A stretch of 64,000 nt of DNA from Heterotrichella gracilis (taxonomy: Eukaryota; Sar; Xanthophyceae; Tribonematales; Xanthonemataceae). The position numbers and the translations under genes are program-made. Location of the stretch: assembly GCA_032358255.1 (NCBI GenBank), contig JAULBX010017192.1, forward strand, positions 25,503 to 89,502. The letters run 5' to 3'. The first letter of the stretch is position 1. Each line of letters starts with the position of its first letter. Below, in pieces: positions 15,016 to 51,316 of the stretch. The notes beneath the pieces are model-generated. The model worked only from the letters and a program-made list of their open reading frames with translations. It made no database searches and was not told the DNA's origin.

Positions 15016-18000
15016 TCACAAGCTGTGCCTCATAGCATCTGCAGTCCCTAGGCTGAGGCAGTACAGGTGGTCGTCGCGACACCCCACCACCACCCGCCCA
15101 CCACCCACCACCCGGGGTGAGGAAAATACACAACCTGTGACGGGAGGGCGGATCAGTGACGGGAGGGTGGCTAAAGTGGGCGGAGCACCTGCCTATACAT
15201 ACCAACTGCACCGAAATCTGTGTGTATGCTTCACCGCCCAGCAAACCCCTCAACATGATCCCAGTGCAGCCCAATCAGGCAAGCAATACTGCTGCAGCGG
15301 GGTCTCTCCCCCCACTGCATTGCTTGCAACCCACCTGGCAGCTGCACACTCTCCAGCACCTCCCCGCCTCGCACCACACACACTGCGCCGCCGTTGCCGC
15401 ACACAACCACTGTCCCGTCAGCTCCGTCACTCGCGGTGCCTCTGCAATGTAGTGGCACAGCACCTGTGGACACCCCCTGCGGACACACCGCCGCCTCCCA
15501 TGCCACCTCCCCTGTGCCCTCCCTCAATACATACAGCGCCCCCCCTTGGCTGCCCACCAGCACCACCACCCCCTGGTCCATGCGGCACACAGTGAGGGGC
15601 CCAAATGCTGGGGAAGGCAGCTGGGTGGTCCACACCACCTCCCCTCCTGGCCCCAGCGCCTGCACCCCCCCTGTGGCAGTGGCACAAATGACGGTTCCGC
15701 AGGTTGGCAGGACCACTGGTGTGCTGAACAGGGGCCCAGGGGCGCTGTGCACCCACAGGCGGGTGAGATGAGGTGTGGCGGGGTTGTCCATGAGCATTGC
15801 TAGGCAGGTGATGGAGCCATCCAGCAGTGGGAGGTACACGGTGTTGCCAGCGCCAAACACCGGGCTAGCTGATGCCGCTGCACCCTCCCAGGTGTGGTGC
15901 AGGCGTTTGACACCTGGCAGCAGCCACAGTGAGATGGCATCAATTTTAGTGTGGGCAGTAGACAACATCATGGCCATGCGCAACACATGATGTGATTGCT
16001 TGGTGAAGAACCAGAGTGGGTGAAGTGGCTGCCAGAGTAGTAGTGCCTATCATGCGTAGACAAGTATATGGAGTTGAAGGTTGTCGCACGGCACACACAC
16101 CCATCCCTCGCACATACCTTGCTCGTCACACGCCACCATGCAGCGGCCATGTGACGCCACCCAGAACAGCCCTAGCCAGGGGTCAACCACTGGGCAGCAC
16201 CGCACCGCACCGCCCGCGTCACACCGCGCCACCTGGCGGCCTGTGGCTGCATCCAGTATGTGCAGCGCGTCGTCCGCCCCCGCCACTGCCAGGTGGCCCA
16301 AGCTGGGTGCCATGGCCAGGCCAGCATCTGTGCGGGTAGGCAGAATAGTGGTCCATAATGGGATGCCTGGAGGAGGGGAGGATAGGGGTTACAGTACTTG
16401 CATCGTGGGAGACCTGTATGTGCAATATTGCAAATGCACTGGTCCATTCAGGATGAATGTGGGGGCCGAAGTGATGGCATGTGCTGTGTTGTACTTGCAG
16501 ATGCTTGCTTGTGATTTGTGTGCCATAGCTCAAGCCATACCAGCCAGTAACAGCAGGCCACAGCCATGGCCATGCTAGCACAGCACAGCTTCATCCCCAC
16601 CTGTCACCCCATCCACACACACCACATCGCCGCCATGGGACGCGGCAAACACCCACCACCCAGCCACTGCAGCCTGCAGATCGTCACTGCAAGTGGCTGC
16701 GCTTGGCGGGGGTGCTGCCCTCCCCTCCATTTGCACCACCACCACGGGGGATGCATCCACACACTCCCGCAGCCGCACCCGCCACGCACATGTCAGCTGT
16801 GGGGGGGATGAGGGCTGGGCTGCGTCCACCTGGCACCAACAGGCAGGGAGGTATTATTTATATTTATTAAAAACAAATTTATAAATTTGGCACTGCATCA
16901 GATATTTTGTAAATCATGTTGATCACTGTGCAATCTGACAGTCTGACACTGGGCAGGATGCATTTTTGTCGCATAATGTGCCGGCATTGCATGCAGACCA
17001 TAGTCCCCACCTGGCAGCGCTGCATGAGCTCCCGTCGCGCATCAACAGCACTGCCAAACTCCCCCTGCACCGCACCACCCCCTGCCCCTGCCGCCCGACG
17101 CACCCTCCCGCACCGCTCCTGGATGAACATAGCACAGCCAGCGGGGATGAAACCAGGGAAATTGCGTGGAGTGGAATCAGGAGAAGCATCCCTGGGGGTT
17201 GTATCGACATTCGCAATGCCTTGCTGCAGAGCACCCTGCTGCGTCCCAGTAGGTGGCGGGGGCGTGTGTGTGGCCTGGACAGGAACCAACAGGCGCCGCC
17301 GTTTGGGAGCTGCTGCAGCCATGCCATCCCCATCCCTTCTTGCATCAATTCCACTCTCCCCCACTTGTGCCTCCTTGCCAGCTTGCTCCTGTTCCTGCCG
17401 CATGTGTGCCGTGAGGGCACGCACACATGGCGCCCCAGCCACCACCGCTGGCGCCACCCCCAGCCGCCCTGCTGTCTCCGCCACATGCAATGAGGTGGCA
17501 CCAAGGGAGAAGATGTCGGTGGTGGGCTCAAGCTTGGCAACCCCCAGGACTGATGCCAGCACCGCCGCCACATGCGGCTCGGAGATTGTCTGCTGTTGCG
17601 CCAATGGTGCTGGCGAACTGGATGCATTTGGTTGAGGAGGGTCAGCTGCATTGCTTGCACCAGGTGATCCATGTTCATGAATTCCTGACAGTTGAGGATG
17701 GGCTTCGGTGACAGGTGGCATGTGCTTGCCTGCCTGATGTGGCTGGGTTGGGCTGCCACCTGGCCGCAGCGCCCCGCCGTACTCTTGCACTGCAGGTGGT
17801 GGGGGGAGGCGGGAGCGGGCCAGCTTGCCTGCATCTGATCGGGGGAGGTTGTGCACCAGCATGATGACACCTGGCACTGCAGCAGCAGGCAGCATGGTCC
17901 TGCACCACCCACGCAGCATGCGCCCCACCGCCTCCTCCCCGTCACCCTGGGAACCTCCTTCCCCATGGCGGTGCACCTCGCTGGGGGGTGTGGCGAGCTG

Positions 18001-21000
18001 CACGTATGCGGCCAGCAGGGTGTTGCCACCTGGCAGTGGCCATGCCCTGGCTGCTGCTGCCTCCACTGCCTGGTGGCCTGCCAGCACCCGCTCCACCTCA
18101 AGCAGGTCAACTCGAATGCCTGCAGGGACCAAAGAGGAAGAGATTTTGGGGAGTGAGGAGGTGATCACTAAATAAAGCCATTCAATGCAGCAGCAGCATG
18201 CAGTGTATGATGCTGCGCAATGCGTATGATGAATGGCACAGTACTTGATTTCATCAACCCTCTTGCTAGTTGCTTGCTGCCGTGGCTGATGAATGGCACG
18301 GTGGTGTGCACAGCGGTACCCTTCTGCAAGGCAAGTGGTGGTGTGCCCAGCTATGCCAGTTCAGAACTCCCCCATGGCCCTGATGTACACACATGCATGC
18401 ATATAGTTTTGCAACACCGGGGCATCAATGCTGTACAATCGATTGACTGAATTTGTTCTCCCTGTCCTGCTTGCTGCCTGTCTCACCATTTACTTTTGCC
18501 TGCAAATCCTTCCTGCCCACAATGTGCAGGGCCCCTTGCCTGTCCACCCACCCCAGGTCACCGGTGAGGAAGCAGCGCATGGGCAGGCTAGGGGCGCTTG
18601 CGGTGGCATGCAGTGGTTGCTGCCCCGCATGGGTAGGCAACTGTGAAAGGACACACGAGCACATATGTCGGTGGCAAATCTCGGTGTGAACCACAGGTGC
18701 AGTGAGGGGTAGATCTTGCAAGTCTCGTTGAAGATGTGCCCATGTAGTCCACATCCAAGATGATCAGGAACAGCACAGGCAGCTGATGTGCACCTACAGC
18801 CCCAGAGGTGATGCACCAAGCACACGTTGGGTCACGGCATCGCACCTACAGCTTACGGACACTCCCCATGCAACCCCACCTCTTTGAAGCGCTGCTCTGT
18901 TGCCTGTGGGTTGTTGAGGTACCCCACCGCCAGCCCCGCACCCCCCACCATAACTTCACCCACAGCTTGCGGGGGCACGGGCGCGCCGCTGTCATCCACC
19001 ACCACGACTCTGAAACCTGGTAGCGGTGTGCCCACAGGGATCGTGACGGGGTAATCAGGGGGAAGACCGACAATCGGGTCACAGGGGAAGTCCTGCAGAT
19101 GACATCACGCTCCAGTCACGCACAACAATGCACTGCCCGGCACAGGGGACAACAGCATGGCATACATATGCTATAAAATATTAGCCAGCTATGTCTGGTT
19201 TTCTTGCCGGAATGCATGTAATTGATTGATGTATGTAAACGGAGCTCGCATGTGTGGCATTGCCAATTGGTGACCAGTATAGAAGCGGTTTCCGCCTGCA
19301 GCACCTTCAAGCCCATGGTGGACAGGCATGCATGTGGGACCCCACCTGCTCCCCCCAGGTGGTGACATCCGCTGCCGTGACGTCTGCCGCCGCCTCTGTG
19401 CACCCCCAGACGTTAAGCATGCGGGCGGTGGGGGGCAGGGCGGCACGCAGGTGGGAGAGCAGGTGGGGGGGGAGGGGCTCACCACTGCAGACCACCAGGC
19501 GCAGGGATGGGCCTGGGGTGGATGGGGGTGGTGGGCAATGAATGACACTGAGAACAATTGTTTCTGTGTGAGGCAGGCCAGGCAGACCCACACATTGAAC
19601 GCTCTGCTAGAGCACACTTATGTGGGTGTGCAAGCAGGGGCATGTGACGCCTGCGTACTGTGCTAAACCAGTAAGGGGATATACGCGCAAGGACGTGGGA
19701 GGCATACCAAGCAATCAAGCCATGATTATGCAACCGGGGGGGTTCTTCCCTATTGCATTTTACCCACCCAGTGAGTGCGGGGTTGAGTGCTCCCCCTCCT
19801 GGTGGTTAAGCAGCGCGGTGTAGAGTAGGGGCACGCCCACCAGGTGGGTGATGGAGTGGGTGGACAGGGCGCGCAGCAGCAGGGAGGGGCTGGAAACAAC
19901 CTGCAGGAGGGGAGACGTGCCAAAGTAGGGTGGACCAGCGGAGTTGCAACCAACCACTATCACACCACCTCAGCTCACTTAATCTATTGTGCATCAGGCA
20001 ACGAGGGACAGTGCCAGTTTTACATGAATCTTCTCCTTGCACCCAACTTAAGCAAGCTTGTATGCAGCTCCACACCAGCAATCCCCCCACCACCGCCTGC
20101 CCTCATCCCCTCCCACCCACCTGCCTGCTCATCACCACCAGCTGCACACCCGCCAGTAGAGGGCAAAACATTGCCGCCAAGGAGTCCACAAATGTGGGTG
20201 CGGTGGTGAGGGCGGCAACATCATGAGGGAGGAAGGGGAGGGAATCGGACTGCCAGGTGCAGCGGTTCATAATCCCTGAAGGAGGGTGGAGGAGTGCATT
20301 TCAATGATTCGTCCTGCTTTTCAGCATTGGCCCTTCCGTCTCCGTCACGTCCCTCTGGACAGGCGCTGGGCACATGGGTGTGGCTGCGGCCAGCCCCTTC
20401 CCATCCCCCTTGGGTGTGAGCGCGTAGTACCCATTTGAGACACACAGGCACTGCAACATTTTTTACACGAGAAACATGCAGGACATAGCAGGGGTCTTAG
20501 CAAGTGCGTGCATGACCTTCCTTCCTTCTAGAAGGAGCAGGGAGACCACAATCTACCTACCACCCACTCTCCACACACACATATCCAGCAAGTCCAATGG
20601 CACCAGTCAGGGGCGAGGCCAGCTGATATATTGAGGGCTCCCCGTACGAACTGGAGACTACCTTGCTCTGTCCCGCACACCCCCAGTGGCTGGCCTGTCG
20701 ACCCCGAAGTGAACATGACATAGCAGTAGGGGGGGGAGGGGGAGGAGGGCAGGGGGAGGGGCACATGGGGCCGCAAGGAGGGGACCGGGGTGATTCGGAG
20801 GGCAGGAGCGGCTTCCAGGGGGCAGGGAAGGTCCATGCCTGCATGGTTAATGGCAGTGAACTGCTGGTTTGTGGCAAAATGACACCTGGTCTGATCAAGC
20901 GGACAAATGTCATCACTGTCACAGTTACTGAAACCGTTAACGGCGTTTACAAAAATCTATCATAGTTTAGGAAGTATGCGGGAACGGTATACGGTGCTAT

Positions 21001-26280: not shown

Positions 26281-28546
26281 TCAGCGGTACCTGCGGCGGT
26301 CATCTTGTGGTGGGCTGCGCTCGCGCTCCCGGCCCTTGTCCCCCTCCTCCTGCACAGCCACACCAGTGCATGCAGATCAGCGCCATGGCCACAAATCTAC
26401 AGCCCTATAATTGTAGAAGCAACACAAAACAACGCGCACAGGTGGATGCAACCGGTTCATGTGTTCCTCGCTGTACGGTAGCATGCATGGCTGGTGTACT
26501 TACGCTTGTGCGCCCCCCCTGACGGAATTTCTTCTTGAGGCGGCCGTACTCGTCATACCTGCACCGGGGGGCAGGGCGGTCACGACACTGCAACAACCAC
26601 ATGGCTGCAGCGAAGTACAGGCACTAGGCACCCTGGTAACCTATTCCTGCATCAGCACGCACTGGCCTGCGACGGTGCCAACCAAGCAGCAGTAGACCAA
26701 GAGCGCACAGCGCATCAACTCCCAAATCACCAACCAAGCACCAAGCCCCACCGCTCCCCCTTGCTTACTTTTCATTTTCATCCTCCTCCACCTGCTTGCG
26801 CCTGCGCCTTGCCTCCTCCAGCTCGCGCTCGTCAAGCTCCTTGAAGCCGCCGCCAGTGCCCTCGCGGTTGGTGTCAACGGTGCCTGGCTTGGGCGTGTTG
26901 CACATGTTGCACTTGAAGCGCCGGGCCCAGTTGGTGTTGCCGCAGCTGGGGCACGCCCAGTCTCCTTCCGTGAAGAGGGCTGCAAGGGGCGGGGGAGTGC
27001 GGGGTGAGCTGAATGCTTGCAGCTGCAGGTTCTGGCAAACATCCATGCATGCACGGCAGCAAATGCGCCCCATTTCATGTGCTGCATAGTTGCATGCGAC
27101 ACCTCCCAGTGCTATGCACCATGTAGTAACACAAGAAAACTTCAGGATAAACACACAAGTAAGGGTACACATTTTGCGCACCTGCTGGACCCTGTGGGGC
27201 TGCCACCACCCTCTCCCGCCCGCCACCACCACGGCCCCCGCCGCCGCCGCCGCCATAGCCCCCACCACCGTCACCACCGCCGCCGCCGCCACCCGATGGC
27301 TTACCCGACCCACACCTGCGCACCAGGCATAGTTAGTGGCGAGGACCTGCAAGGGCAGGGGCGCCATGCACACGCGGGCTTGGCTGCAGCTTTGTGTTCA
27401 GAAGCAGCCACTTACTTGTTGCACTTTAGCCGGAAGGAGAAGTTCACGTTGCCACAGGTGCACGCCCAGTCGCCTTCACGCATCTCCTTGGGCCCGCCGC
27501 CGCCCCTGCCCCCGCCACCCCCGCCGTAGCTCTGCCCCCCACCGTACCCCCCTGCCTGCTGCTGGTCATACCCTCCGTACCCCCCTGCTGCCGGTGCGCT
27601 GTATGCCGATGCATCATACCCATATGCTGCCTGCCCTGCGTCAGCTTGATAGGCAGCGGCAGGGGCAGGGGCAGGTGGCACTGCAGCCGCCTGGTCATAC
27701 GCGGCTGGTGCAGAGCTGCCGTAGTCATATGCCGGCTGCTGGTAGCTGCTGTCCCCCCTACCGCCACCCCTGTCGCCATATGACTCCCTGCTGCCACCCC
27801 TATCCCGGTCTTGGTAGGAGTCACGACCCCGGTCCGCTCCACCCCCACCTCCATACCCACGGTCACCGCCACCACGGTCACCACCGCCATAGCCCCTACC
27901 GCCGCCACGGTCACCACCGCCGTAGCCCCTGTCGCCCCCACCGCCATAGCCCCCGCCACCCCGGTCACCCCCACCATAGCCACCCCCACCGCGACCTCCT
28001 CCCCTGCCCCCCCGCCCACCAAAGCCCCTGCCCCCGCCCCCGCCGCCACCCCAGACCCCCTCTGGCTTCTCCGCTAGGCTCACCTTCAGTGGGGTACCTG
28101 GCACGCCCAACACAAATACATCAGCTTTACTGCCCTGATCCGCTGGCTGCTGCTGGGACAAGGGTTGCGCATGCATAAGCAGAAAATGCAGTTTGTAAAC
28201 GGACAACTTTGTGGGCGACGCCTGTATCTGGCAACTGAATACACGACGCTGCAGTAGATGCAAGTGACGCTCTACACACACCTTTCCAGTCCTTGCCATT
28301 GAACCACGAGACTGCAGAACCGGCAGAAAAGGGGTCTTCGTAGGTGACAGTGAAGTCCCCCTTCGGCTGCCCTGTCACTTTGTCCCGGTAGATCCATATC
28401 TTCTTCTTGTTTGTCTTCTTATCAAGCTTGATGATGCCGATGGAGCCAAAAAACTCCTCGATGTCCTGCTCTGCGACCCCAGAAGGCATCCCTTGCACGT
28501 ATATCATGTCCGTGTGAGGGACATCGAACTGGTTACTGAAATCCAT
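26281..28546 (-). CDS. TAF15/FUS-like RNA-binding protein: RRM, RGG repeats, two RanBP2 zinc fingers
   Basis: Nuclear RNA-binding protein of the FET/TAF15b type, linked to pol II transcription and splicing. Exons on the minus strand: 28546-28282, 28097-27416, 27315-27182, 26979-26769, 26558-26504, 26349-26281; 1416 nt, 471 aa. Residues ~14-100 form an RRM (RNP2 IYVQGMPSG, RNP1 KGDFTVTYEDP). A Gly/Tyr/Asp/Arg-rich tract with YGGGDRGG units and RGG boxes follows. A Tyr/Gln/Ala stretch (YDQQQAGGYGG) resembles prion-like FET segments. Zinc finger 1 is GDWACTCGNVNFSFRLKCNK + C, split by an intron. Zinc finger 2 is GDWACPSCGNTNWARRFKCN + MC. The tail is charged (ELEEARRRRKQVEEDE) and ends in RERERSPPQDDRRRYR. 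Finger 1 has one residue fewer between its first two cysteines than finger 2. It is divergent from the seven-module gene. The family call is strong. Confidence 0.92.
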
Positions 28547-29180
28547 ATTGTCTTGAGTTGTAACTCGGGGAACAGCCAGGCTCAGGCCAGAAAGCAGGAC
28601 TGCTTGTGAGTCTGTCAGATTCTTTCAAGTGGGCATCAGTAGATAGGAAGGGCAAGACAGGGGTGCCCTTCTGATGGAGCTTCACCGGGTGCCAACCTGC
28701 CAGCAGACAACACCAGCCATGCAAACGTGTTCCCAGCCCGCATACATATAGAGGCTTTGTGGGCGTTGTAGTCATGATGGTCCACCCATCAAGCATTGCC
28801 CAAACAACCAAAGTCTTTGATCATCGTTAATGATCGTGTTTAACGATTGTAAAGCTGATCAGCAGTCATCCAACGGGCTTGTGATCACCATTTGATGAGG
28901 TAGAGGGGTAGTAACCTGCCAACGGGGGGACAAAGCAACTGTCCCCCGGACGGCGGCTCAGGGGAAGTTGCAAAGAAAACCGGTATGAAACAAAAGGTCA
29001 CTAAAACTAAAACACAGACCAGAAGGTTGAAAGGTGGTTGTTGTAAACTAGAGAAGGGACAGCAAGTTGTTTACAACTCGAATCGGTCGCCATCGCCGCA
29101 CGCAGTGCACGTTTTGTTGAGAATCCAGGCGTGCTTCCCCCACCCGTTTGCAACGCTTGGGGGTCACTGGCCCGATGGCG
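28504..29180. promoter_or_regulatory. Bidirectional promoter between TAF15-like and seven-module genes (copy A of an inverted duplication)
   Basis: The 628 bp between the start codons at 28546 (minus) and 29175 (plus) must hold both promoters. A TATA-like CATATATAG lies near 28744-28752 on the TAF15 side, and a palindromic GATCATCGTTAATGATC near 28820. The segment 28504-29180 is repeated in inverted orientation at 35845-36502. The repeat includes 43 nt of TAF15 coding sequence at one end and 6 nt of the other gene's coding sequence at the other. Confidence 0.7.
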
Positions 29181-32100
29181 TCGCTTGAAGCCCTGCAGAC
29201 GCTCCCTCCAGAGGAGCAGCTGGCGTATTTGAACGTGAAAATAAACGAGTGTGAACTTTCTCCCCGCAGCAACGACCAGGCCCAGGCGTTCAGCCTGAAG
29301 GCCTTGCAGCTGAGGCAGGGCACCGTCAATGCCCTCGGGCCTCGACCTGACGACCCCGAACAGGCAGCAGCGTGGGACCAGCACAAGGCAGAAGCCGAGG
29401 AGGCCACGGATCGGGCCCTGCTGGAGGAAAGGTCGACCCTGAACCAAACCGGGCTCCTGGACAAGTACCAAGAAGGGCTGACTCTCAAGGCCCTGAGGGA
29501 CCAGATCCTGTCGCACCAAGCAGCACTCCCAGTGGGCCAACCAGGTAAGAGCGCCTGCAGGCGAGGCCATGACGACCACTGCACCGTGTGATGAAGAGTT
29601 ACATTCCGTCCGAGCCCCTTTTTGCGGGCTTTGCAACTCATTGGTATTCGTTGGACACCACCGTGCTGCTTGCTCATCATGTTGCCCCTGCAAATGCCCT
29701 GGCATGTTTGGGTTTGGGTACGCTTGACCACCTCTCGGCTATGTATATATGTGGCACATACCGCAGTCAAACATCCATGCCTGCACGTGCTGCTCCTCCA
29801 CCGCCGTGTTTTGGGAGGCCATTGTGAACAGCATGCCAGGCCTTTGCACCAAGGACCATCAACCCAACGACACCATCACCAGTTTTGCTGACCGATTCCG
29901 CTGTGCCTGCTAGGTGATGATGCCTCACACGCGCAAGCCCTATGGCCAATCCCGCAACCAGGAGACGGCCAAGGCCTCATGCAGCAGCAGAACTACCTGG
30001 TGCCTGGGGTTGTGCTCCCAGCAGGGTACGCCCTTGCCGAGCATCCACATGATATGCTGGCAGGGCAGTACCCAAACGTGGAAATGCCACTGGGGGTTGA
30101 TGGCTCCAAACAGTGCCGCATCTGCACGCTGAACAAGCCGCTGGCTGCGTTTCACCGGAACAAGTAAGTGGCTGCCAACGAAGCTGCAGAACAGCACTTC
30201 ATGGTTCACAGATGGTTGTGTGTGCGCCTGTACCACCTGCTGATTTAATGTCACTGGCCAGCAGGGGCAACTCTGACGGCCACGACACGCGCTGCAAGGA
30301 GTGCTGCGCAGTGTATGAGATTGAGAAGCGCAAGAAGAGGCCAAAGGTGCACGAGCCCACGGTGGGGGAGAAGCTATGTAGGCGCTGCCAACAGATGAAG
30401 CCCTCAGCAGAGTTCTACAGGTGCGTGGCTCTTGGTTCCTGCACCACTTTGTCACTAGGTTGCCACCTCCGCTCTGTAGCATGGGCAAACGAGACAATTT
30501 TGTTGCTGTAGGAACACCTGCAAGTCAGACGGGCTCTACAACCGGTGCAAGGGCTGCTTCAGCGCTGCAGCTGCAGACCGGCGCCAGAAGAAAGAGCCTG
30601 TCGTCCCCACTGTGTCTGAGAAGGTGTGCAACAAGTGCGGAGTGCTCAAGTCTGCCAACGACTTCTACCGCAACAAGCTGATGGCAGATGGGCTGTATGG
30701 CCACTGCAAGCGCTGCCACGCAGACAGTGCCACCAAGCGCTTTGTGGTGGAGCCCACAGTGGCAGAGAAGACCTGCAGGTGGGTGGAAAACGTTGCAGCA
30801 GATGTGCGCTCACTAGCCTGGCATTGGTGTTGTGGCTTTTGATAGCACTGCCTGCTTTGTATACGTGCGCAGTGTGCGACTTTCCAACGTTTGTGTTGCG
30901 CAGGAAGTGCCAGATCCTGAAGCCATCCAATGACTTCTATCGCAACAAGCTGATGGTGGACGGGCTGTACAACTTCTGCAAGGTGTGCACCAATGCTGCA
31001 GCTGAGCAGCGCTCCAAGAACACGCCTGCCAAGGTGGTCACTGTGCCAACCGTCTCCCACAAGGCTTGCAAGGTACGACGCGCTGCACAGGTCACTGGCA
31101 CTAAGATTCCAGCAGCACCGCCCGTGGCCCATACATAACCTTTGTACTGCCACCTTTCCTACTAGGCGTGTGTTGCTGGTGTAGGTGTGCCAGGAGGACA
31201 AACCTGCCACCGACTTCTACCGCAACAAGAACATGTCAGACGGGCTGTTCACATCGTGCAAGGAGTGCTGCAGCCAGAACCCCGCCAAGCGCATGTGCGT
31301 GCCAGAGCCTAAGGTTGCGGAGAAGGTGTGCAAGCGCTGCGGCTCGGAGAAGCCAGCTGACCAGTTCTCACGCAACAAGTCCAACAGCGATGGCCTCTAC
31401 TCTTGGTGCAAGGTACGCAGCAGAAGAGCATGCAGGAGTGGCGTGGCATGGGCGAGGCACTGTGTATTGTTGCTTGGTATGTTACCCTTGGTGAGGGGAT
31501 GTGTTGCTGAAGGTACCCCTGCCACCTGTCACAGGAGTGCGATGCACGCAGCGCTGCTGAGCGCAAGAAGAGCATCACGCCAGTGAACGAGCCTCGGGTG
31601 GAGACCAAGAAGTGCACCCGCTGCGGTGAGCACAAATCTGCGAAGGAGTTCTACCGCGACCGCCTCAAGTCAGATGGGCTGACCTCCTGCTGCAAGGCGT
31701 GCAAGGGGTCTGCCAAGAAGGCGGCAAAGGCTGAGGCAGCGGACATGCAGGGGGTGGAGCCACAGCATGAAGCCATACATGCGGCAGTCAGCCAGGCAGT
31801 CTCGCCGCCGGAGCCTGTCATTGGTAAGTGCACCTGGCTGACACCGCTTGATGATTTGAAGGACATGGCAAATCAGTTGTGCCACGTGCTAATATATGAA
31901 CGGCCCTTCTCCTTGTCGTGCAGGTCAGGATGAGCAATCTGTGGCAGGTATGCTCGCCTCGCTGCAGCATGGCGGCAATGACCAGATCACCATGCACATC
32001 GACCAGCACGGCCAGATTGTGATCCAGGCGGACGGCGTGCAGCTTGTGGAGGGAGACGCAGCGGCGGTTGCTGCCCAGCCTGAGCTCACCTTCCAGCAGC

Positions 32101-32513
32101 TGGTCACGGCCTCGGAGGGGGTCATACTGGCGCCAGTGCAACAGGTGAGCTGGTAGAGGAAGGGTGCGCATGGGCATGTCATGATGTGTAGGCCCCTTCT
32201 CTTGTGGGTGCTGATGAGCCATGATCGCCTGCAGCTGTGCCACCCATTGATGCTAGGCTGCTTATTGCAATCTTGTGACTGTAATATTGCCTGAAGCGCG
32301 CTTGCCTTGTGTCTGCAGGCTGCTGCTTCGCAGGGGTTCCCCGCTGGCAGTGAACCAGGAGCTGTTGGGGATGCAGCTGGCGGTGAGTTCAGCCTGCAGG
32401 AGCTGATGGCTGACGGGGCGGAGGCTGAGGAGCCAGCGGGCGACACAGGCGCAGATGGACATGGTGCACCCAGTGCGCACCCCCTGCCTGGCACAGACCA
32501 GGTGCAGGGATAA
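29175..32513 (+). CDS. Protein with seven tandem CX2CX22CX2C zinc-binding modules, function unknown
   Basis: I do not recognise this gene as a described protein. Exons 29175-29544, 29914-30163, 30265-30420, 30512-30778, 30904-31072, 31185-31412, 31535-31823, 31924-32144, 32319-32513; 2145 nt, 714 aa. Residues 1-185 are Gln/Leu/Glu-rich (TPR-less helical look). Residues 189-536 hold seven modules of consensus KxCxxCxxxKpxxdFYRNKxxsDGLYxxCKxC. The spacing CX2CX22CX2C is the same in all seven; the module starts are KQCRIC, KLCRRC, KVCNKC, KTCRKC, KACKVC, KVCKRC and KKCTRC. Linkers often contain EPTV or VPTVSEK. Residues 577-714 are acidic and Gln/Ala-rich. Single modules of this kind occur beside HNH/endonuclease-VII domains in phages and bacteria, but no nuclease domain is visible here. 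The start is the first ATG. Zinc binding is inferred from cysteine spacing. Confidence 0.85.
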
Positions 32514-45605: not shown

Positions 45606-48600
45606 TCACAGGGGACCCATGTTGAAGAACTGGCGGAGCGCCCTGATCGGTGCTGGCAGGCGGTACTCTCGCTCCATGTCCTTGATCATGCGAGCAGCAT
45701 CCTCCATGTCGCTGTCCATCACCTCTGCAATGGGGGTGGGAGGTGAGGCACGGGTAGGTGGGCGACATGGTGCAGTGCATGGTGGCTGACATGGGAGAAC
45801 GGCAGGAAGCACCAATTTAAGGAACATACACCATATCTGCTGGCAAGGGGTGGTTTGCCATGTGATCAAACTCCTGCTGTATGGCTGTCACGCATTACGC
45901 AGTGCACCCATGCAGGACAGGGGTCTGCAGCACCATGCATTGTAATGGTAGGATCCACTTACGCATTGCCTCAGGTGCCTTTGCGTCCTCATCCTCGTAT
46001 ATCGTGAACCCCTTGCCAAATGAGCGCAGGTTGGACTCCAGCAGCTCCACCTCCCCAGCAGCGAAGGCCTTCACACGGCGCACCGCGCCGCCAGCTGCAC
46101 CCCCAACCACATCTCGCACCTAGCAGAGAGAACAGGGGCAACCCGTCAGCATGCAAACAATGATGGTCCTCATGTGGAGTGGACTTGATTGTGAAGACAG
46201 GGTTTCAAACTTTCCAAGATCGACGTGTGTGCGAATCTTTATTGGGGATCTGGGACTCCACGGCAACGTGTTGTCCTGCACATTGAGCGGAATTGCTGGC
46301 AATGTTTCAGATGTGTGGTGGCGACAAAGATTGTCTTGCCTGCTGCATGCGCTGCCTAACGCATGTGCCACCTGATGCCCCACACCTAGCCCAGGCACAG
46401 CGGGGCAGATGCCCTGCAAAGCGAAACATAGTGTACGCTGCTCAGGCCCAAACCTAAACACACACACTGAATCCCAACCCACCTGCTCAAAATCCTTTTC
46501 TATCTCGTTGGCAACCTGCCCCAGGTCCTTCTCCACTTCGCCGACAACCTGCTCCAAATCCTTTTCAAGCACACCGGCAACCTGCACTACGTCCTTCTCC
46601 AGTTCTTGTGGGAGGGAGAGCGGTGGCGGGTGTGGCGGGCAGGAGTTATCTGTCACCACAAACTGATCCCACTCCAACCCACCAGCTGCAGCGGCTGCTC
46701 GTAGCTCCGGCACGTACTCAGCGGGGAGGCTGGCGGCACTGAGAAACAGGGGGAAGAATAACGTCCAGTCATGGGGCTGCTAGAGTAGAATGTACCCACA
46801 ATCAAGAATTTCTACACCCTTTGTCAATGCCGGGCAAAGCAACTCTCAGCATGTACACAGCCCCATCAATCGGTCGCGCCCCCCACCCCCCTGCCATGCA
46901 CCTCACCGTGTATAGAGCACCGCCCCTCCGTACCCCTTCCATGCGTCGTTGTTCCCGCGGTAGTACACCAGCACATACTCATTGGGCTTGCTGGCCAGTA
47001 TGTACCAGTCGTCCTCGTAGTGCAGGTACTCATTCTCGTGATTGACCAGCAGACCAGGCTGGGAGGAGTCCTGGGGAGCAAGGGGGACAAGGGGTTTGCA
47101 GCAGAAAGGCATAGGGTCGCATTGGCGCCAGGCCAGTCACCCAAAATCTCAGCCAGCATAACATTGTCCTCCTAAATGCCATGCTTTTTGCCAGCCCCAA
47201 CTGGACCCTCCATGCCCAGTCATGCCTTTGCACACCTGTACAAAGCGCTGCATGGTGCTCCGCTCCAGGAAGTCATTGTTGGCCTTGGCAATGCGCCAGT
47301 TGATCTTTCCGTAGATGAGGCCGGGCTCTGGGTTGACAAAGTAGTGCTCCTGGGCATCAAGGTCAATGGGTGAGCAAACGCATGCGTGTGGAAACAGCAA
47401 ATTCATTTGCTTTAACCCATGCTGTGCAGGCTGGATGTCACCACCTGGTTGTGTTGCCATCATGCACCATGGCATATTGCTAAGTGTACATCCAACCTCC
47501 CCCCTCCCGCCCCCCCTCCCCCCCCCTTCTGTTGCCATCCCTACCTGGCAGTCGAAAATGTCAAACAGGGGGTTGAGCCCCGCTGTGATGTACCAGCGGC
47601 CTGTAAACTCCGACACGTCAAAAGTGCTGTCCAGGGCACAATCGGGCGGGATGGGGAACAGCCCTGAACGGGGAGGGGGGGAGGGAGGGGTGATTGGTGA
47701 CAATTTGGCGAGGTAGGAGTGTAAGAACAGATAACGTCCAGGATGTGCATGCCAACCAATTGGTCAAGGCACGCTGGCTGGTGTGCGCCAGTGGTGTTCA
47801 CGCACCCTCGTCCTGCTTCTGTGGCACACATCTCTGCTCTGAGATTGCGCATGAGTTGAAGGTGTCGATTGCGGCACTGGAGTACTTGTCGCCACACTTG
47901 ATCTGGCGGATGGGGCAAAGGAAGTGAATTAGAGGTGGGCAGGACGTGGGCAAGGCGTGGCCAACAGCTTGCTCACGCCACTGCGTTGCCCATGCCCAAG
48001 ACAACACACGTCCAGCTAGACCGAGCGCAGATATATTCCCAGTCTTGCCATTTCCCCACACACCTGGCAGGCCGTCTCATCTGGTTTCCCGTTGCACAGG
48101 TTGAGGCACACAAGGTTCTCCAGGCACTGCACGTCGCCCAGGCAACCAGCCAGCGCGCCCTGGCAGCTGCGCAGTAGGCAACCGCCCACCTTGGCGGGGT
48201 CAGCAGCAAAGGCAGGGCCTGCGAGAGCGGGTGGGGGAGTGGGTACGGTCTTGCGGCATGCCCCATGGGGTGCTTGAACAAATGGCCACTGGCACCGGCA
48301 GGCAATGGAGGGCATGTGGCGTGGTGATGGGAAGGTGGCCTGGTTTAACACAGTCTGTTGCCCTGCCATCTGTGACAAGTTTGTTTGTGAGAGCAAACAG
48401 GTATGTGGGTCCCTGGGTGTGGTACTAAGGTACTGTCTGGCCCTGCTCACGGCAGCACCACCCACCTGCAAATGCCAGCGATGCTGACAGCAGCGCTACC
48501 GCCAGGCCCTGACCCACGCGAGGTAGTAGTTGTTCGTGGGCAGCCACAGAAGGGGGTGTTCGAGGGGCGCTGCAGTGGGTGGGGAGGGCGGCTGGCCGTG

Positions 48601-49757: not shown

Positions 49758-49797
49758 GGCTGCCATGCTGGGCTACTAGCAGAGCAGGGCGCACACT

Positions 49798-51316
49798 ATG
49801 CAGCACCGGGCAGCAGTGTGCACGTGGCGGCTGCAGTATGCACTCTGTATGCAGCTGGAGGGCACGGCTCAGCGACTATCTCCTTGCCTACTTTCGCGCC
49901 CTGCTGGTGCGCACCCATCCACCTGTGGGCACAGTGGCACTGGGGCGGGTTTCAGCAACATTGCCAGGCCAGTAGATGCGCTGTTGCCAGTCAGGTTGTC
50001 ACCAGCAGTCCAGCAATTAGTCACAGCAGCCCGCCATGCCACTCACATCAGCAGTGCTGTCCCCCAGCCTCGCCATTTTCATTCCACCCCCGCCCGGTGG
50101 GCGGGCCCAAGGGGGCGCCACAACCGCGGCATGTTTGAAAAGCCGGAGCCCGTAGTGAAGCAGCGCGTCAACCGCGAGATTCGCGCACCGACGGTTCGCC
50201 TGGTGCACCTCGATGGCCTGCACGAGATTATGCCCACGCCTCGTGCCCTTGACCTGGCCCGTAGCCAAGAGCTTGACCTGGTGGAGGTGAACCCAAATGC
50301 CCACCCACCTGTGTGCAAGCTCATGAGCTTCAACAAGCTTGTGTATGACGTGAAGCGGCGCGAGCGTCAGGCCGCCAAGAAGGAGGCAGCACAGCGCAAA
50401 ATGGAGGCGGCTAAGGAGGTGCGATTGTCACTGGGCATCGCGCAACACGACAGGTGCGGAGTGGGTTGGAGTGGGGAGAAATCCATGCATCCTGTAGGGT
50501 GATGTGGAGTTGTGATAATGCCTTTTTTACTCCTGCCATGCATACTGGCTGCGTCATGGACCTTTGGTTCCTGTTGTTTGTACTCACCCCACCCCACCAT
50601 ACAACACAGAATGTTCCTATAACAAACATGCAAATGTCTACAGGTTAGTAGTCATCTTGTAATTGCCATTGCTTGCCACATCCAGCTTATGCCTTATTTT
50701 AAAGTGGTCGTGCACAATTCTCAATGAACACTGCAGCCGTTGCGCCCTGGTTCCCCAACAATAGGACGGTTATTAGTGGGAAAGGTTCTTGTGGAACCTT
50801 ACCAATCCTCAATTCTCTTTGAATTTCCAACAAAACACGTGCATGATTGGATCAGATGTAATGCTGTAGCTTAGCTAGCCGTACTCCCCTGGACGAATCT
50901 AAGTGACAATAGTGTCCTCCAAGGCTGCCAGTGTGCCTGCATTTGCATGTGACTGATCCATGAGCGGCGAGATCCTGGTATCGACAGGCTTGTGTTGCAC
51001 CACAGCCGCCCCTGTTTCTGACCCTCGTGCCCGGCCCCAATTGTGCAGGGATGTGAAGCTTGCGCAGGCTGTGCGCTTCCTGCACCGTGGGTACAAGGTG
51101 CGCATGGTGCTCAGCTACGCTGGGCCATGGGTACGGGAGGAGGCCATGCTGGCGCTGGACTGGGTGGAGCAGCAGATGGAGGCGGAGGGGAAGCGCTTGG
51201 AGCGGCCGATGCGGCCTGCTCGCAACACTCTGAGTGTGATACTGGGCCCTCTCACTGATGTGGAGAGGAAGGAGAGAGGACTGGCGCCAATTGCTGAGGA
51301 GGCTTTGGAGGAGTAA
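49798..51316 (+). CDS. Organellar translation initiation factor IF-3
   Basis: Bacterial-type IF-3, which binds the small ribosomal subunit and proofreads initiator tRNA in an organelle. Exons 49798-50453 and 51049-51316, 924 nt, 307 aa. Residues 1-~110 are a presequence rich in Arg/Ser/His/Ala with no acidic stretch; RHFHSTPARWA looks like a mitochondrial cleavage region, though plastid targeting is possible. The N-domain is VNREIRAPTVRLVHLDG, then ELDLVEVNPNAHPPVCKLMS. The basic linker is VKRRERQAAKKEAAQRK. The C-domain crosses the intron: EVRLSLGIAQHDR then DVKLAQAVRFLHRGYKVRMV, ending with a Glu-rich tail. The splice AG|GTGCGG to CAG|GGATG keeps frame. The true start may be a later in-frame ATG. 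It is immediately downstream of the CX9C gene and upstream of eIF1A, all on the plus strand. Confidence 0.9.

Follow-up and report, generated by a model that had tools for sequence, protein, structure and literature searches.

A 64,000-nucleotide stretch of contig JAULBX010017192.1 from Heterotrichella gracilis (hereafter the window) contains, at 29175-32513 on the forward strand, a predicted algal nuclear gene for a protein with seven four-cysteine (Cys4) modules in tandem. We propose that this protein is most likely a nucleic-acid-binding regulator without a recognised nuclease, a reading to which we give a probability of about 0.5. It fits best because four features come together, namely the company of nucleases that the module keeps in viruses, the lack of any recognised catalysis in the algal protein, the basic charge of the array and the acidic ends on either side of it.

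Gene model and module array

Rebuilding the gene from the raw sequence gave nine exons and a 714-residue open frame closed by TAA. All eight introns have GT-AG borders, the GC content at third codon positions (GC3) is 0.74 over the coding sequence, and retention of an intron would introduce an in-frame stop in six cases and a frame shift in the other two. The splice sites and the open frame confirm, for the predicted gene model, the nine-exon seven-module gene of the original prediction. For predicted exon joins, one might suspect an artefact in which the modules are parts of separate genes or pseudogene pieces; we consider this very improbable, as the eight GT-AG introns hold a single frame and five of them rejoin half modules correctly.

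Exactly seven C..C-X22-C..C strings are present in the protein, all within residues 191-536, which confirms the seven CX2CX22CX2C units, each with exactly 22 residues between the cysteine pairs, that had been reported. The modules start at residues 191, 245, 298, 347, 403, 453 and 507, and the linkers between them measure 24, 23, 19, 26, 20 and 24 amino acids (aa). Their mean identity to one another is 53%, and eleven columns are invariant in all seven. These are the four cysteines, an Asp-Gly pair, a Phe, an Arg and three Lys, of which one comes four residues past the second cysteine, one belongs to C-K-x-C and one stands two residues ahead of the first cysteine. From this pattern of cysteines, the modules are likely to bind zinc. 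Before each of modules 2-7 stands the motif P-x-V-x-x-K, so that the duplicated unit includes the linker and is 49-56 aa long from start to start, not 30; this fits internal duplication as the origin of the array. Introns cut modules 1, 2, 4, 5 and 6 at module positions 16.67, 14.67, 1.67, 2.0 and 28.0 (phases 2, 2, 2, 0 and 0, respectively). Given that these are five different positions, the modules are not exons, in support of the earlier argument against simple exon shuffling. The array as a whole (residues 189-560) has a net charge of +35 and lies between acidic ends (-15 and -21); the acidic C-terminal tail (residues 561-714) is rich in Gln, Ala and Gly and would be a candidate activation or interaction region. 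The parts of the gene are listed below, with bit scores from a viral-only profile that was built from 157 viral modules.

29175-29544, 29914-30163, 30265-30420, 30512-30778, 30904-31072, 31185-31412, 31535-31823, 31924-32144, 32319-32513 (+): nine predicted exons, from splice sites and open frame
29175-30107 (+): N-terminal region, aa 1-188, encoded by exon 1 and the greater part of exon 2; net charge -15, no recognised domain
30114-30304 (+): module 1, aa 191-220; split by intron 2; 44.5 bits
30377-30557 (+): module 2, aa 245-274; split by intron 3; 40.7 bits
30627-30716 (+): module 3, aa 298-327; no intron; 47.0 bits
30774-30988 (+): module 4, aa 347-376; split by intron 4; 48.6 bits
31067-31268 (+): module 5, aa 403-432; split by intron 5; 44.4 bits
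31329-31540 (+): module 6, aa 453-482; split by intron 6; 54.0 bits
31613-31702 (+): module 7, aa 507-536; no intron; 40.1 bits
31775-32513 (+): C-terminal tail, aa 561-714; net charge -21, without Lys or Arg, no recognised domain

Viral relatives of the module

That the module is of the kind adjoining phage HNH and endonuclease VII domains, as the original prediction held, is borne out by PHROGs and by the viral-only profile. The profile scores all seven algal modules at 40-54 bits each; among 200 shuffles with the cysteines fixed, a single one matched, with 7.7 bits overall and a best domain of 9.7 bits. In PHROGs, the whole protein matches a Lar-like family (phrog_5558, E 6.4e-71), endonuclease VII (3.3e-51 and 1.2e-36), an endonuclease family (4.4e-37) and HNH (1.5e-35), E-values that sum over repeats with six or seven matched stretches per family. 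Modules 3 and 7 taken singly match the same families, with best E-values of 1.1e-8 and 1.2e-8. These PHROGs matches are free of the selection bias of our viral collection, which was fetched by patterns requiring the cysteines and partly other conserved residues, so that conservation percentages derived from it are inflated. The mean identity of the algal modules to 181 viral modules is 42%, and module 7 is nearer to the viral module of locus L031 (70%) than to any of its sisters (53%). The features of the phage endonuclease VII/HNH-type Cys4 module (CX2C-X22-CX2C with the K, F, DG and CKxC positions), defined here from the loci studied as there is no curated definition, are present in all seven algal modules.

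The earlier claim that the protein has no known catalytic domain also holds: none was found with Pfam (E<=10), NCBIfam (E<=1) or PHROGs (E<=1), and the best PHROGs stretches sit on the module part of the endonuclease VII and HNH profiles. Two short-motif resemblances were set aside. Pfam PF08133, the T4 Stp-type anticodon-nuclease activator, scores 24.8 bits on the array (cut-off 25) and 18.5 bits on the whole protein, probably through a chance match on FYRN..DGLY, and a match to the Engrailed signature is likewise of the short-motif type.

The array had been described as unfamiliar, and in this respect the original prediction is not supported, as proteins on viral contigs hold three, four and six units, in most cases followed by a nuclease-like motif. 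Among the matches listed by our patterns, to which all viral counts given here refer, a module open reading frame (ORF) is present in 176 of the 179 IMG/VR loci examined. The 177 unique viral ORFs carry one module in 127 cases, two in 32, three in 13, four in 4 and six in 1. According to a short regular expression, a nuclease-like His motif lies behind the array in 16 of 18 viral proteins with at least three modules; by eye, one of the two that it missed shows a GHI motif (L122) and the other none (L035). Endonuclease VII- or HNH-like motifs, again by regular expression, occur in 86 of 155 unique viral module ORFs. Ten multi-module proteins were compared with Pfam, which places a nuclease over cut-off in five (L166, L104, L257, L251 and L252) and none in the other five (L170, L253, L241, L258 and L035). 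A Pfam scan at E<=0.01, covering 60 ORFs out of 138 complete non-redundant viral module ORFs, reported Endonuclease_7 in 12, HNH in 7, HNH_4 in 4, HNH_5 in 3 and HNH_3 in 2 (counts that overlap); single ORFs matched T5orf172, MUG113 or an I-HmuI NUMOD-like domain. The six-module viral protein lies on a 147 kb contig beside what appear by eye to be tail genes, and its full frame, also read by eye, runs into an HNH-like end, whereas a shorter cut of the locus had looked nuclease-free. Annotated phage records that match the array number 23, with 16 from Gordonia phages; the annotation reads HNH or endonuclease VII in several of them and hypothetical in others.

The viral endonuclease VII/HNH proteins, mostly annotated as phage (PHROGs 1035, 2340, 2633 and 2255, together with the Lar-like 5558), and the algal protein have the same 30-residue module, in which the Asp-Gly pair, the C-K-x-C motif and the Lys, Phe and Arg positions agree; both have tandem arrays, of up to six modules in the viral proteins, with linkers of similar length. 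They differ in that most viral arrays of at least three modules have the nuclease-like motif behind them, whereas the algal protein has seven modules, introns, acidic ends and no recognised nuclease. Three two-module viral proteins (L038, L051 and L150) have no nuclease-like motif and show, on reading by eye, a helix-turn-helix-looking start; they may be regulators of viruses with an architecture like that of the algal protein. Also in line with a regulator, an artificial consensus unit has a match at the end of a sigma-factor PHROG, although modules 3 and 7 gave no such match at E<=0.001.

A nucleic-acid-binding regulator and its rivals

In the regulator that we favour, each module would be a small basic bead that binds nucleic acid, with DNA as the most likely ligand, and the seven of them in a row, joined by linkers of 19-26 aa, would bind by avidity. 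The acidic Gln/Ala/Gly-rich ends would recruit other proteins, and the whole protein would act as a poly-zinc-module transcription or chromatin factor, with a putative regulatory role in the nucleus. DNA as the ligand is suggested by analogy, from the nuclease company of the module and from Hpy99I, which is the second-best solved relative of the module profile (3FC3, residues 75-114, E 0.056; unrelated dioxygenases come next in the PDB search, at E 0.45). An additional CXXC/CXXC copy is described for Hpy99I close to the N-terminus (PMC3996161); it aligns with the Cys4 pattern and the Lys of the module, and residues 1-105 of the enzyme are described as mediating DNA binding and dimerisation (PMC3765158). 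Unlike the algal array, this copy belongs to a catalytic restriction enzyme, and the sequence match is marginal. A related Pfam comparison, of module 3 with His_Me_b4a2 (PF18275), gave E 0.0015 and 19 bits, under the cut-off of 25.

A number of observations weigh against this reading. The best solved relative of the module profile is Stc1 (2LUY, E 0.017), and the finger region of Stc1 is reported to be needed for association with Ago1, i.e. for protein binding (PMC2875855). The Stc1 and Hpy99I matches are both marginal, with E-values of 0.064 and 0.15 when longer flanks are included, and the array as a single sequence gave no PDB match. The stretch matched in Hpy99I extends past residue 105, and DNA binding was ascribed to the whole of residues 1-105. 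In the viral proteins with at least two modules, the nuclease motif is absent by regular expression from 20 of 50, of which at least two (L173 and L177) were missed by the expression and have a DHxxPL-type motif. Finally, the argument from the portability of the module is weakened because endonuclease VII and HNH share a fold (PMC6083498), and it comes to rest on one or two GIY-YIG-type cases.

The main rival to a nucleic-acid-binding regulator is a scaffold resembling Stc1, in which Argonaute or another protein would be the partner of the modules, chromatin-modifying enzymes would be brought in by the tails, and small RNAs would in this way be connected to silencing. According to Bayne et al. 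(2010, PMC2875855), Stc1 joins Argonaute to the CLRC complex and represents a fungal family acting between RNA interference (RNAi) and chromatin, the substitutions K100A and R116A in its LIM-like region break the association with Ago1, and relatives exist in Ostreococcus, Micromonas, Emiliania, Aureococcus and Phaeodactylum. Stc1 (PF12898) is the sole Pfam family that the algal protein matches over cut-off, with 31.7 bits against 24.8 for the whole protein and 35.0 bits for the array alone, and four out of four shuffles of the array with fixed cysteines had no Pfam match at E<=1. The best stretch in the whole-protein run, residues 403-482 (modules 5 and 6), covers positions 2-82 of the 84-position model. 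Both S. pombe Stc1 (PDB 2LUY, the top PDB match of the module profile) and the algal array consist of tandem Cys4 fingers, and the family is reported in algae. In the alignment with 2LUY, anchored on C83 and C93, Stc1 K100 appears to correspond to the Lys at position 8 of the 30-residue module, which is the same in every one of the seven, and Piwi-domain exons over cut-off are present in the assembly, on contigs C388 and C3.

Against such a scaffold, the same Pfam model is passed by phage proteins, namely L257, an endonuclease VII, with 35.9 bits and L241 with 30.6 bits (two of the ten multi-module proteins), and 15 of the 60 scanned viral module ORFs match Stc1 at E<=0.01. The Pfam name therefore groups such modules and does not pick out Stc1 function. 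The original prediction was to be refuted if a search placed the protein in a characterised family, and this has happened in part: the Stc1 cut-off is passed, but the placement leaves the function unfixed. When only the array was run, the best stretch was limited to model positions 43-82, and an exon-by-exon Stc1 search of the assembly did not list the seven-module gene at E<=1. The Lys does not vary in the viral alignments either, partly by selection. S. pombe Stc1 has two closely packed fingers, with spacings of about 34 and 20 and a 9-residue linker, whereas the algal protein has seven fingers with a spacing of 22 and linkers of 19-26 aa, and the viral profile gives the Stc1 finger 20.8 bits as opposed to the 40-54 bits of each algal module. 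Taken together, we regard an Stc1-like scaffold as unlikely. Since L257 and L241 pass its cut-off, the Stc1 domain of fungal RNAi heterochromatin may share ancestry with the phage nuclease modules.

The basic charge of the array would also suit beads that bind RNA, in keeping with the divergent RNA-binding-type frames next door (an RRM and a RanBP2-type ribbon, with 628 bp between the ATGs). Neighbourhood alone is a weak argument, and in viruses the module accompanies nucleases of what we take, from the family names, to be DNA-cutting families; binding of RNA is, in our view, distinctly unlikely. It would be harder still to see the protein as the remnant of a captured phage-type or viral nuclease without its catalytic domain, kept or being lost and with no defined role. 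Viral proteins do have the same array, of up to six modules, followed by a nuclease-like region where the algal protein has none that is recognised, but all 28 module cysteines and the eleven invariant columns are intact, and the frame and GC3 are maintained across nine exons.

A nucleic-acid-binding regulator of this build could have originated by domestication of a phage-type nuclease. As a fuller scenario, which we put forward tentatively and consider doubtful, algae captured the targeting module of a phage nuclease, multiplied it to seven, lost the nuclease and gained acidic tails, and the fungal Stc1 adaptor arose from the same module. If true, the gene would stand for a class of DNA-binding poly-zinc regulators confined to its lineage, and algal arrays would link phage DNA targeting to eukaryotic chromatin targeting. 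If the array binds DNA, a nuclease-associated poly-zinc array would be added to the eukaryotic DNA-binding architectures, and its constant core of 22 residues would make it usable as a modular scaffold. The module and its tandem layout in viral proteins are already known, as is a related Pfam family in algae; what is new, within the collections searched (which for cellular organisms means one eukaryotic genome and a weak prokaryote scan), is the combination of seven modules and acidic tails in a protein that has no recognised nuclease.

Genome setting and neighbouring genes

The window is part of contig C173 in an assembly of 68.5 Mb and 903 contigs, where 43 matches to the chlorophyll a/b-binding family indicate a photosynthetic eukaryote. 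Searching the assembly with the whole protein returned only the exons of the seven-module gene itself, and no second algal gene with the module was found in an exon-by-exon search in which the best candidates only were scored. With phrog_5558, six places were found, five in the seven-module gene and one on contig C145 (L018; 99.9 kb), where a small ORF has a cysteine knuckle matching this family. C145 was rejected as a second algal copy, as its stretch 91500-99892 has 36.7% GC and, on reading by eye, compact frames; it looks like a phage or bacterial contaminant contig in the algal assembly. Other candidates were discarded too. A match to the Stc1 model on C824 (20.5 bits) is under the cut-off and the module was not seen there, nor was it seen on reading C301 (E 0.11), and the endonuclease VII and HNH matches on C111, C318, C296, C889 and C156 fall on the nuclease part of the models (sequence read by eye for C111, C318 and C889). 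The endonuclease VII-like stretch at C889:6714-6839 (L232) scores 23.7 bits against a cut-off of 23.6, lies in a 1167-aa open frame of 40.5% GC and is possibly a mobile element or contaminant. The Piwi pieces mentioned above, at C388:145-2014 and C3:440-1406, lie near contig ends and are consecutive, as if one Argonaute gene had been split by an assembly gap.

In prokaryotes, a three-unit cysteine pattern gave 40 genome-contig stretches, none of which has the module by profile, a weak absence because the pattern needs TGCAAGNNNTGC at its start and a fixed spacing and so misses most codon choices. No published algal array of this kind was found in the titles and abstract starts of open-licence PMC papers.

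Upstream of the seven-module gene, the domain search identified two divergent frames, given here for context only:

28127-28624 (-): divergent neighbour, RRM frame
26765-27397 (-): divergent neighbour, RanBP2-type zinc-ribbon frame

If they belong to a single gene, the two predicted frames fit a TAF15/FUS-like gene, in line with the TAF15-like neighbour that had been described. The likely ATG of the RRM frame is at 28546, which gives the 628 bp to the ATG of the seven-module gene, and a promoter common to both is possible from this arrangement. Elsewhere in the window, AMP-binding C-terminal and phosphopantetheine-attachment domains occur in a single frame at 16879-18360 (-), which suggests an enzyme of the non-ribosomal peptide synthetase-like or reductase type. 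A translation initiation factor IF-3 N-terminal domain is present at 49780-50502 (+), and a violaxanthin de-epoxidase lipocalin domain at 47149-47763 (-).

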